A stretch of DNA of 64,000 bases from Hydrogenovibrio halophilus DSM 15072 (GCF_000384235.1 NZ_KB913033.1:124001-188000); one strand, 5' to 3'. Shown: positions 56,982 to 64,000, counted from the first letter of the stretch. Translations and numbers: made by a program. Notes: generated by a model not told the origin, from the sequence alone.

Positions 56982-56997
56982 CCGCTAGATATTGTGG
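56982..56997. promoter_or_regulatory. Possible NrdR box upstream of nrdB
   Basis: The 16-mer CCGCTAGATATTGTGG matches 12 of 16 positions of the commonly cited NrdR pattern ACACTATATATTGTGT. A second box at the usual spacing is not evident, so this is tentative. The 205-bp gap 56841-57045 holds no gene. Confidence 0.3.
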
Positions 56998-57045
56998 GAA
57001 GACGCCCGCTTTCAGACATTTTATCCAATTATGGGGAATCGATTC

Positions 57046-58179
57046 ATGAGCTGTCAGGAAAAACATTCGTATTCAACGTTTTGCCGGTCTTCGAATAACG
57101 CGCTGAAAGAGCCGATGTTCTTCGGTCAGAACGTGAATGTGGCGCGTTATGACCAGCAGAAACACCCCATTTTTGAGAAGCTGATTGAAAAACAACTGAG
57201 CTTTTTCTGGCGTCCGGAAGAAGTCGATCTCTCCAGTGACCGGGGCGAATACGCCAAGTTGCCCGAGCATGAAAAACACATTTTCATCTCCAACCTCAAA
57301 TATCAGACGCTGCTGGATTCGGTGCAGGGGCGCTCGCCCAATGTGGCGCTGCTACCACTGGTCTCGATCCCCGAACTGGAAACCTGGATTGAAACCTGGT
57401 CGTTCTCCGAGACCATTCACAGCCGCTCCTACACCCATATTATCCGCAACATCGTGTCCGATCCGGGCATTGTGTTTGACGACATTGTCACCAATGAAGA
57501 AATCGTCAAGCGCGCGATTTCGGTGACCGAGTATTACGACAAACTGATTCACCTGACCAATCGCATGTACGCCGAAGAAATCGATCTGGCGCAAAATGAT
57601 GCCTTCCGCAAAGAAGTCAAAACCGCGTTGTTTTTGACCATCGTTTCGGTGAACGTGCTGGAAGCGATTCGGTTTTACGTGTCCTTTGCCTGCAGCTTCG
57701 CGTTTGCCGAACGCTCCCTGATGGAAGGCAATGCCAAGGTGATCAAGCTGATTGCACGGGACGAAGCCCTGCACCTGTCCGGCACCCAGCACATCATCAA
57801 TCTGATGACCGAGGGCAAGGACGACCCAGAGATGATGACCATTGCCCAGGAAAACCGCGACAAGGTCGAAGCCATTTTCCGCGAAGCCGCCGAGCAGGAA
57901 AAGCAATGGGCCGATTACCTGTTCCGAAACGGTTCCATGATCGGCTTGAATGCCAGCATTCTCAAGGATTACGTGGAGTACATCACCAATATCCGTCTGA
58001 GAGCGATCCGATACGAGCCGATTTTTGAACAGAAGAGCAATCCCCTGCCCTGGATGAACAACTGGCTGGTGTCGGACAATGTGCAGGTCGCGCCTCAGGA
58101 AGCGGAAATCAGTTCCTATCTGGTGGGCCAGGTGGATTCCAAAGTCGATCAGGACGACTTCAACGACTTCAATCTGTAA
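57046..58179 (+). CDS. nrdB: Ribonucleotide reductase class Ia beta subunit
   Basis: NrdB holds the diiron-tyrosyl radical cofactor for making deoxyribonucleotides. The ATG at 57046 follows GGGGA by 8 bases and gives 377 residues, like E. coli NrdB (376). [33 protein letters not shown], the radical Tyr in [29 protein letters not shown] and the C-terminal tail DDFNDFNL, which docks on NrdA, are all present. nrdA is not adjacent, unlike the common nrdAB operon. A possible NrdR box lies upstream. Confidence 0.97.
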
Positions 58180-58231: not shown

Positions 58232-58255
58232 AAACTGACCAGGCCTGGTCAGTTT
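58232..58255. repeat. 24-bp perfect palindrome centred on ACCAGGCCTGGT
   Basis: The 12-mer (58238-58249) is extended by six further paired bases on each side, with no mismatch. It lies 53 bp after the nrdB stop and just beyond another hairpin, AACCGGCT/AGCCGGTT (about 58200-58224). Confidence 0.9.
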
Positions 58256-58354
58256 GCCAATGGGTTTTCCCAGTTCCTCCCGCTCCCTGTCACTTCAAAA
58301 AACTGTCACAGGACCCACATCCGGCTGTCATTTTTGCGGGATAAACTCTCAAGA

Positions 58355-59101
58355 ATGAATTCTTTAGTCATGGCGTTCTTGCGCCACAGCGATTACCACC
58401 AGCGTCCGGACACGCCCAGTGCTTTGCAGCCCTGGGGTCTGACAGACAAAGGGCGGGAACAGGCCAGAGCCGGAGCGCACAATCTGATGGATTGGGCCAA
58501 AGCGCAGGGTTTCATTCTGGACCCGGCGATTGTCTGTTCCACCAGCCTGCGTGCCTGGCAGACCGCCCAGATCATTGCCACCGAACTCAACCAGAACAAG
58601 GCCCCGTTCCCGGTCACCGGGCGTGCCACCGATCAGGTGTTTCACCCCGTCAGTCTGTTGCCGTTACATGAACGCTCGGTGGGCGCTGCCGCCAACCTGA
58701 CGCTCGATGAAATCGAACAGGCCCTGGCCGCGGACCCGCGCCATGCGGTGCCCGCCCCCGGCTGGAAGTCGGACAGCCATTATTGTCTGCCTTTTGAGGG
58801 TGCCGAATCCCTGATTCAGGCCGGGCACCGGGTCAAAACCGCTTTGGAAACCCTGTGTCAGCCTCTGGCCGAAAACATTCAGGCCAACACCTTGAAAGTG
58901 GTGATCGGCCATGGTGCCAGTTTTCGCCACGCCGCCTACCTGATGGGCGTGCTACGCTTTGAAGACATTCATCAACTGTCGCTCTATCATGCCCGGCCGC
59001 TGTTGTTTCGCTACACTCCCGGCCAGAACCCGGCCTGGGTGCAACTCAGTGGTCAGTGGAAACAGCGTACCGCCAGCGACCCTTCCCCCACCCCGGATTA
59101 A
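58355..59101 (+). CDS. Histidine-phosphatase-family protein
   Basis: 248 residues from the ATG at 58355. The phosphatase core is MAFLRHSDYHQRPD (R-H-S in place of the usual R-H-G), then LTDKGREQARAGA, VCSTSLRAWQTAQIIA and VIGHGASFRHAAYL with the second His. The layout is that of SixA/PGM-type phosphatases, with an insert of about 60 residues (about 95-155). It opens a run of six co-directional genes ending in the GAK cassette. Its partner or substrate may be a phosphorylated protein or metabolite of that system, which is inference from position only. Confidence 0.75.
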   Translation: MNSLVMAFLRHSDYHQRPDTPSALQPWGLTDKGREQARAGAHNLMDWAKAQGFILDPAIVCSTSLRAWQTAQIIATELNQNKAPFPVTGRATDQVFHPVSLLPLHERSVGAAANLTLDEIEQALAADPRHAVPAPGWKSDSHYCLPFEGAESLIQAGHRVKTALETLCQPLAENIQANTLKVVIGHGASFRHAAYLMGVLRFEDIHQLSLYHARPLLFRYTPGQNPAWVQLSGQWKQRTASDPSPTPD

Positions 59102-59115
59102 CCCAAGGAATCTGT

Positions 59116-60408
59116 ATGCCCTCTGCCAATGCACTGAACACCGAAACATGGCACCCAACCCTGGCCGAACCCTCACGTCCCTGCCATCAATGGATGCAGG
59201 CTTTGGCGGCCGATGAGAGACCGCAATGGGGCATCAGTGGGGACCAATGGCTCAGTCCGAATCAAGACACCTATTTTTTCTGTGATCTGCACGCCGATGC
59301 CGACGCCTTTCTGCGCTCGCTCAAGTTAAGCGGACTGGTCACACGAGACAGCATTTTAAGCGATCTGGCCCTGACTTCCGCCGGTCAGCGCAGTCAGATC
59401 ATCATCGGCGGTGATTGCTTCGACAAAGGTCCGAGCAACCTCGAACTGCTGTCTTTGATCGGCCATCTTTATCGAATTCACGCCGATGTGGTGCTGCTGG
59501 CCGGCAACCATGACATGCGCGTCTATGCGGGGTTGATGGCACTGGACGTGATGGACGATCTGCGTCAGGCGCACTTTTTTATTCGCATGGGCCGCAAAAC
59601 CGTCCCCTTGTTTGCCGAAATTTACGCTTACGGACAACAACACCTGAACGAAACCCTGTCCCCCATGACCGAAGCGCAAATCAAGCAAGCGCTGTTGCCA
59701 CCACCGGAATGGTTTGAGTTTTTCCCAGCCTGGGCCCAAGGATTCATGCCCAAAGCCAAAATCCAAAAAGAACTGAAACGGGTCAAGCAGAAACAGATCG
59801 AATTTTTTCAAGCCTGTGGCGAGGCGGGACTGAGTCTGCGCCAGCTCTATCAGGCCACGCTCTGGGCCAAAGAAACCCTGCTCAAACCAGACGGTGCCTT
59901 TGGCTGGTTTCTGCAGTCGCTGGATTTGTTGCACATCAACGGCAGCTACTGCTTCAGTCACGCCGGACTGGACGATCAGATGGCCATGCGTCTGCAGGTG
60001 CAGACGCCCGAGCAGATCAACCGGCATTTTCGCCAGCAATTGTTTGAAGGTCGAATCTTTCAGCTGTACTACAGCGCACTGGGCAACACCTTTCGCACCA
60101 AATACCGCGCAGGGGATTATCCGCTGACCCCCAGAGGGGTGCGTATGCTCAAGGAACGGCGGATTTATGCCATGGTCAATGGCCACCGCAGTCACCCCAA
60201 TGGCCAGCAATTGTTTGTGCGCGAGGGCTTGCTCAATTTTGAATGCGACACCCAGCTCAATGCCAATTGTCGGCGCAAAAAGCAGCGCCACAACCCCGGT
60301 GAAGCTGTTACAATTTTCCATTCCGATGGACGGGTTCAGGGATTGAGCGCCGATTACCCGGCGATCAAACAATTCCACCCCGATCATCTTAACCCGGATG
60401 TTTCATGA
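59116..60408 (+). CDS. Metallophosphoesterase
   Basis: 430 residues from the ATG at 59116 (AAGGA before it). Calcineurin-type motifs: YFFCDLHADADAF (DxH), IIIGGDCFDKGPSN (GDxxDRG-like), LAGNHDMRVYAGL (GNHD) and VNGHRSHPN (GHxH-like). It has a large helical insert (about 165-300) and an FNFECD end block. This is a two-metal phosphatase of unknown substrate. The gap to the upstream phosphatase is 14 bp, so the two are likely one transcript. A position beside a kinase/ATP-grasp cassette suggests that it reverses one of its phosphorylations. Confidence 0.78.
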   Translation: MPSANALNTETWHPTLAEPSRPCHQWMQALAADERPQWGISGDQWLSPNQDTYFFCDLHADADAFLRSLKLSGLVTRDSILSDLALTSAGQRSQIIIGGDCFDKGPSNLELLSLIGHLYRIHADVVLLAGNHDMRVYAGLMALDVMDDLRQAHFFIRMGRKTVPLFAEIYAYGQQHLNETLSPMTEAQIKQALLPPPEWFEFFPAWAQGFMPKAKIQKELKRVKQKQIEFFQACGEAGLSLRQLYQATLWAKETLLKPDGAFGWFLQSLDLLHINGSYCFSHAGLDDQMAMRLQVQTPEQINRHFRQQLFEGRIFQLYYSALGNTFRTKYRAGDYPLTPRGVRMLKERRIYAMVNGHRSHPNGQQLFVREGLLNFECDTQLNANCRRKKQRHNPGEAVTIFHSDGRVQGLSADYPAIKQFHPDHLNPDVS

Positions 60409-60473
60409 ATCCTTTTGAATGAAGCCTTTCATGAAACAAAGGGCTCTGACTGAGAATGGTGCTGGGAGGTTGC

Positions 60474-60773
60474 ATGGGCAAAAAGAACAAACGTTTTGAG
60501 CACGAGTCGCTTCAGGACAAGGACGCCATTGTCTGTTACCTGAAAGCCGTGATTCAGGGCTTCAAAAAAGGGGCGATCGAGGTCTCCGACGAAGAAGACA
60601 CCATCACCCTGAAACCGGAAAAGCTGGCGAACCTGAAGATCAAAGCCGATCAGAGCAAGAACGCCCAAAGCCTCAACATCAAAATCCAATGGTCTTCGGA
60701 CCAGAGCGAAGATTTTGAGGAGACGCCTTTGTTCATTGATCCCAAAACGCCCAAGAAAAAGAAAAAGTCCTAA
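60474..60773 (+). CDS. Amphi-Trp domain protein of a GAK-type cassette
   Basis: 99 residues from the ATG at 60474 (GGGAGG before it). It fits the small amphi-Trp family: FEHESLQDKDAIVCYLKAVI, then QGFKKGAIEVSDEEDTITLK, a strand pattern, and IKIQWSSDQ with the late Trp. It ends in a Lys-rich tail (PKTPKKKKKS). Proteins of this type are known to me only by their repeated presence beside ATP-grasp and HprK-related genes; they may be the protein substrate of those enzymes. Followed 9 bp later by the kinase gene. Confidence 0.75.
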   Translation: MGKKNKRFEHESLQDKDAIVCYLKAVIQGFKKGAIEVSDEEDTITLKPEKLANLKIKADQSKNAQSLNIKIQWSSDQSEDFEETPLFIDPKTPKKKKKS

Positions 60774-60782
60774 GACCTCAGC

Positions 60783-62429
60783 ATGCAACAGCCCGCCTCA
60801 TTATACGAACCCTTGCGGTTTCTGACCCTGGAACTGCAAAAGCAACTCTACCAGGTGGAAACTTACCTGGAGTCGGGCGACCTGAGTCAGGCCGAGCAAA
60901 GCCTGAAGCGGGTGGACTACATTGACAATCACCACCTGAATCTGCTCCGACGCATCAGCGAACAGACCAAAACACCGGACCAGACCCAACCGACCGACTC
61001 GGTGACCCTGCAGAGCTACGACCACATCAACCATGGTCTCAAAGCCCTGTCGCGCCAACTTCAGGCCATCGTTTTTCAGGCTCGAAACGCCCCCAAAACC
61101 GCGTTTCGCTTGCTCAACAAAAAACGCGTGCATGCCACCTTCAAACACCTGACCAGTGGGCTGGAACTGATTGAACCGGCGATTGAGGCCGATGATTCCA
61201 CCCTGGCGATTGATATCTGCCGTCTGCAGGTGCGAATTGATCAGGTCTGTCAGGCCCAGCTGGACAAATACCAGAACCGGCTGCGCAAAGGCCAACAGAC
61301 CGATGCCCTGCTCAATGCCAGCTTTATTGTGCGCGACTTGGGCCGTCTGGGCGAAGCCCTGTTACGGATCGGCGAAGGCATTATCTCCGCCAATCTCGGG
61401 CAGATGATCCAGATCGAACGCTACCATTCGCTGGAAGCGACCCTGTCGGCGCTGTCGTTGAACCCACAGGAAGAAGCTCTGACCATCCGCACCATGGGAG
61501 AAACCAAATCCGGCTGCACCATCTCCGGCGTCATGTCTTCTCAGGAGTCGGAAGGCGAAATGCTGGCGGTGTTCAAGGCCGGGGACAAGGCCAAGCTCAA
61601 GGAAGAAAAAACCGGCATCGAAAACTGGCACGAAGTCTATCCGGGCATCGCGCCCCAAGTGTATTCCTACCACAAAAGCGGCAACAAGGCCGCATTGCTG
61701 TTTGAATACCTGACCGGCGACACCCTGGAAAAACTGCTGCTGGAGCGCGACCGCAAAACCCTGCGCGAGGCGCTTCAAGCGCTGTTTCAAACCCTGGACA
61801 ACATCTGGCAGGAAACCCGGATTGATTCGGTCCTTCCGGCCCACTTTATGCGGCAATTGAAAAAACGGCTCAAAGACATTTATCAGGTGCACCCCGAACT
61901 GGAATCCCAGAGCGTGACCATCAGCGGGGTAAAAAACGCCAACATGAAAACCCTGATTGACCAGGCGGAGGCCTTTGAACAGACCCTGACCACCCCACAG
62001 GCCGTGTATGTGCATGGCGACTTCAATCTGGACAACATTCTTTATGATACCCTGTCGAGAGACATCAATTTTATTGACCTGCACCGCTCGGATTACACCG
62101 ATTATGTCCAGGACCTGTCGGTGCTGATGGTCTCTTGTTACCGGCTCAACCGTTTCGGTCCGCAGGACCGGAAACTGATTGCACAAACCATGCTCGCGAT
62201 TTACGATTACGGGCACAGCTGGGCACAGAAAATCAACGACACCGATTACGATCTGCGTCTGGCACTGGGGCTGAGCCGGTCTTTTCTGACCTCCACCCGT
62301 TTTGTGCTTGATGCCAGCCATGCCAAAGCCATGCAATTTCGTGCCCGCTTTTTGCTGGAATCGCTGCTAAAGCTCACGCCCGAGCAGGCAAGCACTTACA
62401 AAGTCCCCAAAGAGATCTACCATGACTGA
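60783..62429 (+). CDS. APH/protein-kinase-like phosphotransferase with helical N-terminus
   Basis: 548 residues. The first 240 are helical (two long coiled segments) without a known match. The C-terminal part is an aminoglycoside-phosphotransferase or atypical protein kinase fold: EMLAVFKAGDKAKLKEEKTG (nucleotide Lys), LFEYLTGDTLEKLLLERD (hinge), YVHGDFNLDNILYDT (catalytic HGDxxxxN) and INFIDLHRSDYTDYVQD (metal Asp). All catalytic residues are present. Its stop overlaps the ATP-grasp start by 8 bp, so the two are translated together. The substrate is unknown. Confidence 0.8.
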   Translation: MQQPASLYEPLRFLTLELQKQLYQVETYLESGDLSQAEQSLKRVDYIDNHHLNLLRRISEQTKTPDQTQPTDSVTLQSYDHINHGLKALSRQLQAIVFQARNAPKTAFRLLNKKRVHATFKHLTSGLELIEPAIEADDSTLAIDICRLQVRIDQVCQAQLDKYQNRLRKGQQTDALLNASFIVRDLGRLGEALLRIGEGIISANLGQMIQIERYHSLEATLSALSLNPQEEALTIRTMGETKSGCTISGVMSSQESEGEMLAVFKAGDKAKLKEEKTGIENWHEVYPGIAPQVYSYHKSGNKAALLFEYLTGDTLEKLLLERDRKTLREALQALFQTLDNIWQETRIDSVLPAHFMRQLKKRLKDIYQVHPELESQSVTISGVKNANMKTLIDQAEAFEQTLTTPQAVYVHGDFNLDNILYDTLSRDINFIDLHRSDYTDYVQDLSVLMVSCYRLNRFGPQDRKLIAQTMLAIYDYGHSWAQKINDTDYDLRLALGLSRSFLTSTRFVLDASHAKAMQFRARFLLESLLKLTPEQASTYKVPKEIYHD

Positions 62430-63318
62430 TCAGACCCTCAAAATTGCCGTGGTCGGCATTCCCGGAAAATGGTCGACCGAGGTCTTGGCCGATGCCATTG
62501 AAGCCAGAACCGGCTTTCGACTGGTCATTGACATTGAACAGGTCGTGGCGGACCTGGCCAGCAATGAGGTCACTTATCTCGGCCATTCCCTTTGCGATCT
62601 GGATGCCATCATTGTCAAAAAAATCTCTCAAACCTACAGCCCGACGGTGATTGACCGGCTGGAAATTCTGCGGTTTGTGGAAAAATGCGGGGTCAAGGTC
62701 TTTTCCAAACCCAGCGAAATCATTCGTCTGGTTGATCGCATGAGCTGCACCATTTCCCTGAACCGCGCGGACATTCCCATGCCGCCGACGGTGATCACCG
62801 AAAATCTGGACGCCGCCGTCGAGACGGTCAAAACCTACGGGGAGGCGATTCTGAAACCCCTGTTTTCCACCAAGGCCCGGGGCATGGAAGTGCTCAAAGC
62901 CAAAGACGGGGCCAAAAGCCTGCGCCAGCAATTGCAAGCCTATTACGACAAACAGGGGTTTTTGTATCTGCAAAAAAAACTGAACCTGCCTGGACAGGAC
63001 ATGGGGCTGGTGTTTTTGGGCGGCGAATATCTGGGCGCTTACGCCCGCATCAGCGGCGACAAAAGCTGGAACACCACCATCTATGCGGGTGGCAAATACG
63101 CCCCCGCCACGCCCTGTGCTGAGACCATTGCCTTTGCCCAAAAAGCTCAGGCCCAGTTTGATTTGAGCTACACCACCGTGGACATGGCCGAAACCGAAGA
63201 CGGCCCGGTCTGTTTTGAAGTCTCGGCATTCGGTGGTTTCAAGGGCGCGCAGGAAGGCTTGCAGCTGGACATTGCCGATCACTACGCCCAGTTTGTCATC
63301 GACACCCTGACCGCATGA
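62422..63318 (+). CDS. ATP-grasp enzyme of a GAK-type cassette (RimK-like)
   Basis: 298 residues. The N-terminal pre-ATP domain has VVGIPGKWSTEVLADAIEAR and LDAIIVKKIS. The ATP-grasp core has AILKPLFSTKARGMEVL, DMGLVFLGGEYLGAYARISG and the Mg-binding end CFEVSAFGGFKGAQEGLQLD. It resembles RimK/LysX ligases, which join an amino acid to a carboxylate using ATP, and I recognise it as the family named GAK system ATP-grasp enzyme. Its natural substrate is not known to me. Overlaps its neighbours on both sides (8 bp and 4 bp). Confidence 0.82.
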   Translation: MTDQTLKIAVVGIPGKWSTEVLADAIEARTGFRLVIDIEQVVADLASNEVTYLGHSLCDLDAIIVKKISQTYSPTVIDRLEILRFVEKCGVKVFSKPSEIIRLVDRMSCTISLNRADIPMPPTVITENLDAAVETVKTYGEAILKPLFSTKARGMEVLKAKDGAKSLRQQLQAYYDKQGFLYLQKKLNLPGQDMGLVFLGGEYLGAYARISGDKSWNTTIYAGGKYAPATPCAETIAFAQKAQAQFDLSYTTVDMAETEDGPVCFEVSAFGGFKGAQEGLQLDIADHYAQFVIDTLTA

Positions 63319-64000
63319 ACACACCCTCCTTTCCGACCCATCTGAATGCGCTCAGAAACCGGCTCAAAACGGCGCATGCCTCCCATGCCCTCACCCTTCA
63401 GTTGCCGCAGATGACTCTGCGCATCCGCACCGATCAGGCGGCACTGGCGCAAACCCTGAGCGACTATTTTGCCCCCTGCCTTATCCAGCCGGCACCCAGG
63501 TCCCAACCGGACCTTGAAATTCTGGCGCTGGAATCGTCCGAGTGGCTCAGTCTGGGAGAGAACTGGCAGGACTGGCAAAGAGAACCGGGGAAATCCGGGC
63601 GCAAGGATGCGATCTTTGACTTCAGTGACGAAGAACGGTTTGTCTACAAGGTCAAAACCGGGATGGTCTTTTGGCAAAACCCGCATCAGCCCACCGCCAT
63701 CGGCCCCGTGAACCGGCATCCCAATCAAGTGATTAATTTTGCTCTGACCCAATATCTGAATCACCACCTCAATCAGGGCTGGCAACTGGGACACTGTGCC
63801 GCCCTGACTCTCCAAAACCGGGGGCTTGCCATTGCCGGATTGTCCGGAGGGGGCAAGTCCACGCTGATGCTGCATTTGCTCGAGTTGGGCCAGGCCTTTG
63901 TCAGCAACGACCGTTTGCTGATTCGGCCCGATACCACAAGGCCTGGTCAATTTTGCATGCGCGGGATTCCCAAATGGCCCCGCGTCAATCCCGGCACCCT
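63315..64000 (+). CDS. HprK-related kinase B, cut by the window end
   Basis: A partial gene (228 codons so far, no stop before 64000). It starts MNTPSFPTHLNALRNRLKTA, with its ATG overlapping the ATP-grasp stop (ATGA). The P-loop GLAIAGLSGGGKSTLMLHLL and the following FVSNDRLLI are the HPr-kinase-like core (Walker A and catalytic Asp). This matches the HprK-related kinase B family that accompanies the ATP-grasp and amphi-Trp proteins. A CofD-related gene and another small protein often complete the set and may lie beyond the window. Confidence 0.8.
   Translation, partial: MNTPSFPTHLNALRNRLKTAHASHALTLQLPQMTLRIRTDQAALAQTLSDYFAPCLIQPAPRSQPDLEILALESSEWLSLGENWQDWQREPGKSGRKDAIFDFSDEERFVYKVKTGMVFWQNPHQPTAIGPVNRHPNQVINFALTQYLNHHLNQGWQLGHCAALTLQNRGLAIAGLSGGGKSTLMLHLLELGQAFVSNDRLLIRPDTTRPGQFCMRGIPKWPRVNPGT
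63936..63947. repeat. ACCAGGCCTGGT palindrome, one mismatch
   Basis: Inside the HprK-related gene; third base A instead of C. Confidence 0.6.

Follow-up and report, generated by a model that had tools for sequence, protein, structure and literature searches.

Here we describe a six-gene operon in a window of 64,000 nucleotides from Hydrogenovibrio halophilus DSM 15072 (NZ_KB913033.1:124001-188000; G000:C1:124001-188000 of a single-contig 2.36-Mb genome). The locus belongs to the compact type of GAK cassette, with neither CofD nor a Nudix gene. Regulation of the operon by a PHO box is well supported at the sequence level, and one cassette kinase is fused to a PhoU domain. Together, the PHO-box array and this fusion, both overlooked in the first-pass annotation of the window, point to phosphate starvation. 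We give roughly even weight to the reading that GAK is a PhoB-controlled phosphate-starvation system in which the PhoU-kinase, an amino-acid ligase and HprK-related kinase B (HprK-B) would act with or on the small amphi-Trp protein, with phosphatases serving reversal or recycling. The features of the operon, in window coordinates, are as follows.

58292..58335, + strand, PHO-box-like array of four 11-bp units, ACTTCAA.AAAA/CTGTCAC.AGGA/CCCACAT.CCGG/CTGTCAT.TTTT
58355..59101, + strand, histidine phosphatase (HP), superfamily branch 1, 248 aa; Pfam His_Phos_1, E 1e-11
59116..60408, + strand, calcineurin-like metallophosphoesterase (MPE), 430 aa; Pfam Metallophos, 2e-5
60474..60773, + strand, GAK-type amphi-Trp protein, 99 aa; TIGR04354, 68.6 bits
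60783..62429, + strand, PhoU-kinase, PhoU (~1-222) fused to a kinase of the aminoglycoside phosphotransferase (APH) type (~230-548)
62422..63318, + strand, GAK ATP-grasp ligase, RimK/MptN-like, 298 aa; TIGR04356, 453.6 bits
63315..64000, + strand, HprK-B, 5' part; the whole gene (381 aa, L003:6316-7461) runs past the window end

The GAK operon

Adjacent in the operon, the amphi-Trp protein and its partners exceed curated NCBIfam cut-offs: 31 bits for TIGR04354, 300 for the ATP-grasp enzyme (TIGR04356, grasp_GAK) and 200 for HprK-B (TIGR04355, HprK_rel_B), which scores 184.6 as the window piece and 281 bits as the complete protein. The GAK-type assignment proposed in the first-pass annotation was thus right. 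All six co-directional open reading frames (ORFs) that it listed are present, and its start codons reproduce exactly the spacing of 14 bp between HP and MPE, 65 bp before amphi-Trp and 9 bp before the kinase, as well as the overlaps of 8 bp (kinase/ATP-grasp) and 4 bp (ATP-grasp/HprK-B). Since the same genes cluster in dozens of genomes, this layout is not chance. The genome is close to Thiomicrospira sp. WB1, whose ATP-grasp enzyme is 88% identical.

The set had also been expected to continue past the window, with a CofD-related gene to follow. The HprK-B gene does run on, but the operon stops after it because the neighbouring gene, 6 bp further (L003:7468-8310, a predicted multi-pass membrane protein), is convergent. 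No CofD_rel_GAK (TIGR04357) was found in a search of the whole genome.

GAK cassettes occur in gammaproteobacteria, alphaproteobacteria and planctomycetes; by database names, an XXXCH-domain protein is a GAK member in other lineages. We found no paper using the GAK family names in the open-access literature searched, outside of which such papers may exist. An anti-phage defence system was set aside, as none of the six operon proteins matched a PADLOC family.

A PHO-box-like array upstream of the operon

The PHO box consists of two 11-nt direct repeats, each with 7 conserved and 4 less conserved bases, the former being CTGTCAT in E. coli (PMC4415409). Such 11-bp CTGTCAT direct repeats, which mark the Pho regulon, are found in the array at 58292-58335 directly upstream of HP, two of its units reading CTGTCAC and CTGTCAT. 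Its four-unit score, applied after the region had been seen but built on the published repeat, is 20/28, the best on either strand of the window; the pstS gene of the same genome scores 21/28.

For comparison across genomes we collected 96 loci whose ATP-grasp gene is of the GAK kind, comprising the window locus, 15 other gammaproteobacterial genomes (two of them weak matches only) and 80 named genome contigs; the set includes a few duplicate genomes. Two-unit sites scoring at least 11/14 precede 20 of 80 cassettes, where dinucleotide shuffles give 1.5 on average and never more than 4; for sites reaching 12/14 the count is 7 against 0.2. Eighteen of the 20 sites are in forward orientation. Among 420 permutations of its letters CTGTCAT ranks first (20 loci against a mean of 2.2), and a gap of 4 nt, the published spacing (PMC4415409), gives 18 forward loci, while no other gap exceeds 8. 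The box is strongest in the window's own family, with 13/21 cassettes, loci inside one family not being independent of each other. Neighbouring PstS and CYTH-CHAD genes, which adjoin 7 and 11 cassettes respectively, agree with the phosphate link.

The PhoU-kinase

Two kinases had been recognised in the operon. Both are kinases, but the PhoU fusion in one of them had been missed. Its N-terminal part (~1-222) has PhoU crystal structures as hits (E 8.5e-10), and the remainder (~230-548) has APH enzymes (2e-7). An AlphaFold2 model agrees with this two-domain reading (mean predicted local distance difference test score, pLDDT, 90.9), and a Foldseek search with the model returned APH(3') first (2.8e-8), the nearest solved relatives being the small-molecule kinases APH and choline kinase. 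The window protein contains the motifs HGDFNLDN and IDLHRSD, and among relatives the catalytic motif HGDxNxDN and the D-L-H-R after it are near-invariant. A kinase-fused PhoU domain would bear on how PhoU transmits the phosphate state.

The amphi-Trp protein and its motif

The amphi-Trp protein carries the motif F8-E-H10-E-S12-L-Q14 (ORF numbering). The general form, F-x-H-x-S-x-Q, is present in 13/13 GAK-linked amphi-Trp proteins and in 0/16 from genomes without GAK, in which the His and Ser are absent at these positions. Across the GAK-linked members, Phe and His occur in every one, and Ser and Gln in 98%. As it is confined to GAK-linked proteins, the motif is a candidate GAK-specific contact or modification site, and amphi-Trp would be a substrate or partner of the cassette enzymes. 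In an AlphaFold2 model (one helix and four strands, pLDDT 86.5), the motif lies directly before the sole helix. The model gave no significant match to solved folds in the PDB, the HPr fold included.

The Lys tail, which the first-pass annotation had taken as a property of the small protein, was dropped as a defining feature because the C-terminus varies among relatives. About 19 GAK-negative gammaproteobacterial genomes (L129-L145) encode a separate amphi-Trp subfamily, in which an RDIEK...KLRRLAD pattern is conserved.

The ATP-grasp enzyme, HprK-B and the phosphatases

The GAK ATP-grasp enzyme matches RimK/LysX structures (E 1e-18) and scores 153 bits against the MptN model, for which 350 are needed; it reaches the equivalog cut-offs of neither RimK nor MptN. 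From this kinship it would ligate an amino acid. Its metal site, E266-V-S268, is the same in all 13 aligned GAK enzymes and replaces the usual E-x-N, Ser268 being Asn in the RimK/LysX-type structures listed. This invariant Ser is a caution on the exact chemistry.

HprK-B has the invariant residues H160, GxSGGGKS and N198-D199-R200; the first Asp of what we take to be the usual HprK pair is Asn. The model for HPr kinase proper, TIGR00679, gives 27.6 bits against a cut-off of 240, and so we rejected HprK-B as the ordinary HPr kinase of the genome, in which no true HprK was found.

Alignment of relatives shows that HP has invariant R10-H11, R66 and H186, and MPE the invariant motifs D-x-H, GGDxxDKG, GNHD and HAG. 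MPE weakly matches Ap4A phosphatase models; a single-sequence search of the PDB gave no match for HP or for MPE.

Cassette content across genomes

Gene content was determined by running profiles of the window proteins over the ORFs of the loci and counting the 50 loci with sufficient flank, of which contigs from metagenome-assembled genomes may miss genes. The PhoU-kinase, ATP-grasp and amphi-Trp genes are together in 50/50 and HprK-B is in 47/50. The first-pass annotation had attached the two phosphatases to the cassette, a link that would fail if they were unlinked in other cassette genomes. HP is present in 43/50 and MPE in 44/50, so both belong to the cassette, and in T. chilensis they have been relocated as a pair elsewhere in the genome. 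Sulfurivirga has lost both. In Thiomicrospira sp. ALE5 (L051), an MPE homologue away from the cassette (G384:C5:853785-854867) looks like a decaying gene, as it contains an in-frame TAG.

CofD-GAK, PstS, CYTH-CHAD, a small Nudix protein and a SixA-like/Nudix fusion are found in some cassettes and count as optional. Long cassettes commonly run CofD (divergent), small Nudix, PhoU-kinase, ATP-grasp, HprK-B, SixA-like/Nudix, HP, MPE and amphi-Trp; the compact order in the window's family is HP, MPE, amphi-Trp, PhoU-kinase, ATP-grasp and HprK-B. CofD-GAK is local in 18/50 loci, often upstream and divergent, and we therefore do not treat CofD_rel_GAK as defining GAK. One genome (G196) has a strong CofD_rel_GAK protein (537 bits) although it lacks the GAK ATP-grasp gene. 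CofD was also considered for the gap that other genomes show between HprK-B and HP; this gap instead holds the fusion of a SixA-like histidine phosphatase with Nudix (~320 aa; L023:11484-12443 and about 40 other loci), the phosphatase half of which appears degenerate in planctomycete copies. A ParA-like ATPase gene lies beside CYTH-CHAD near the cassettes of L023, L024, L054, L056, L078, L081, L089 and L109.

Co-occurrence was counted, with no correction for phylogeny, in 369 genomes of the class, 14 of which have the ATP-grasp gene (one split gene counted). HprK-B exceeds its cut-off in 12/14 of these against 0/355 others, and CofD_rel_GAK is found in 5/14 against 1/355. Genome G153 (contigs C152, C197 and C208) has two HprK-B and two GAK-type amphi-Trp genes, which points to a second cassette or to a mixture of strains.

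Upstream of the operon is nrdB (class Ia ribonucleotide reductase beta, 56992-58179), which stands ahead of the cassette in many members of the window's family (L036, L041-L043, L045-L050, L060, L069) and not elsewhere. Between nrdB and the operon lies one further feature:

58232..58255, no strand, perfect 24-bp palindrome AAACTGACCAGG/CCTGGTCAGTTT, terminator-like by its sequence

The consensus scan did not flag this palindrome. Its counterparts in L036 (CAACCAGGCCTGGTTG) and L040 (AACAACCAGGCCTGGTTGTT) differ in sequence and keep the palindromic character.

Proposed role and alternatives

In the phosphate-starvation reading, low phosphate would lead PhoB to bind the 11-bp repeat array and switch the operon on, a step that the sequence supports. 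The PhoU domain may then link the phosphate state to the attached APH-type kinase. Kinase and ATP-grasp enzyme would work with amphi-Trp through its F-x-H-x-S-x-Q motif, such that amphi-Trp, or a substrate held by it, is phosphorylated and receives an amino acid; HprK-B may add a further phosphorylation in most genomes. HP and MPE, and elsewhere the SixA-like/Nudix fusion, would remove phosphate again. The result would be a reversible cycle of phosphorylation and ligation that tunes phosphate economy, possibly near polyphosphate. Besides the PHO box and the PhoU domain, we count in favour of this reading the PstS and CYTH-CHAD neighbours, the higher frequency of CHAD and HprK-B in ATP-grasp genomes, the three core genes common to all 50 loci and the GAK-only motif. 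A more specific version makes GAK an unrecognised arm of the phosphate-starvation response: a PhoU-controlled kinase and the amino-acid ligase would modify amphi-Trp at the motif itself, and dedicated phosphatases would reverse this. We offer it tentatively and consider it rather unlikely in this exact form. Once tied to phosphate starvation, this open enzyme family becomes testable, since the link provides a promoter, a sensor-like domain, a candidate modification site and conditions for growth.

Several observations weigh against the phosphate-starvation reading, besides the late application of the four-unit score. Outside the window's family the PHO box precedes only 7/59 cassettes (about 1.1 expected). 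Sulfurivirga-type cassettes stand directly behind nrdB with no box, and in L060 the gap is 11 bp, with no promoter region of its own. Eight genomes without HprK-B keep the core genes, and the motif Ser is kept in 5/6 of their aligned amphi-Trp proteins (Val in L050); because Ser persists there, the motif is not simply an HprK-B target, and phosphorylation of this Ser by HprK-B is not the core reaction. CHAD, found in 12/14 ATP-grasp genomes against 108/355 others, is common anyway (120/369), in counts that carry no phylogenetic correction. Lastly, the target of kinase and ligase may be a small molecule instead of amphi-Trp.

This last point underlies the strongest rival, to which we assign a substantial but minority share of the probability: GAK would make a small phosphorylated cofactor or metabolite, and might still be phosphate-regulated. 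The PhoU-APH protein would be a small-molecule kinase, as its nearest solved relatives are, and the ATP-grasp enzyme, nearest to MptN, would add glutamate as in the tailing of F420 or tetrahydromethanopterin. CofD, where present, would transfer a phospho-acid, amphi-Trp would serve as a binding or scaffold protein, and phosphatases and Nudix would clear side products. CofD_rel_GAK does reach 543 bits beside related cassettes, but it is missing from the present genome and local in a minority of loci, so F420-like transfer is not the core step. The invariant, GAK-only motif of amphi-Trp is also left unexplained.

Management of polyphosphate or other phosphoanhydrides appears improbable. Here amphi-Trp (Lys-rich in the window), CHAD, Nudix and the phosphatases would have polyphosphate granules or inositol-pyrophosphate-like compounds as their targets when phosphate is scarce. 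CYTH-CHAD, PstS and Nudix do occur as neighbours, CHAD is a polyphosphate-binding module (PMC6537752), and a ppk-pptA(CHAD)-Nudix operon is under PhoP control in Streptomyces (PMC8003754). However, neither polyphosphate kinase nor exopolyphosphatase was found within the cassette, CHAD adjoins no more than 7/50 loci, relatives do not share the Lys tail, and an amino-acid ligase has no obvious role.

Least probable by far is a phosphorelay like the phosphotransferase system. Amphi-Trp would then be the HPr-like carrier, taking phosphate on Ser from HprK-B and also on His, and the SixA-like protein would remove it. The invariant His and near-invariant Ser just ahead of the helix, the presence of HprK-like and SixA-like enzymes in one cassette and the lack of a true HprK would fit, but no enzyme I-like donor was seen, cassettes can do without HprK-B and without the SixA-like gene, the Ser persisting where HprK-B is absent, and without an HPr match for the amphi-Trp model GAK is not an HPr-fold system.

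Comparison with known systems

GAK as named in NCBIfam (TIGR04354-TIGR04357) is recognisable here from the clustered ATP-grasp, amphi-Trp and HprK-B genes, and differs in the absence of CofD_rel_GAK from the present locus. Among the GAK-named models matched there is none for the PhoU-kinase, for either phosphatase, for the SixA-like/Nudix fusion or for the PHO box of these cassettes. With RimK/MptN alpha-glutamate ligases the GAK enzyme shares the ATP-grasp fold and strong sequence similarity over most of its length, and it departs from them in its sub-equivalog scores and in E-V-S for E-x-N. Similarly, HprK-B keeps the P-loop, upstream His and Asp-containing motif of HPr kinase/phosphorylase but scores far under the TIGR00679 cut-off. 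The Streptomyces operon (PMC8003754) resembles GAK in Pho-controlled phosphate handling with CHAD and Nudix proteins; it has a polyphosphate kinase, whereas ATP-grasp, amphi-Trp, HprK-like and PhoU-kinase proteins are not reported there. Like PstSCAB-PhoU phosphate signalling, GAK has a full PhoU domain, a PHO-box promoter and, in some genomes, an adjacent PstS; in GAK, however, PhoU is fused to an APH-type kinase, and the present cassette has no transporter.

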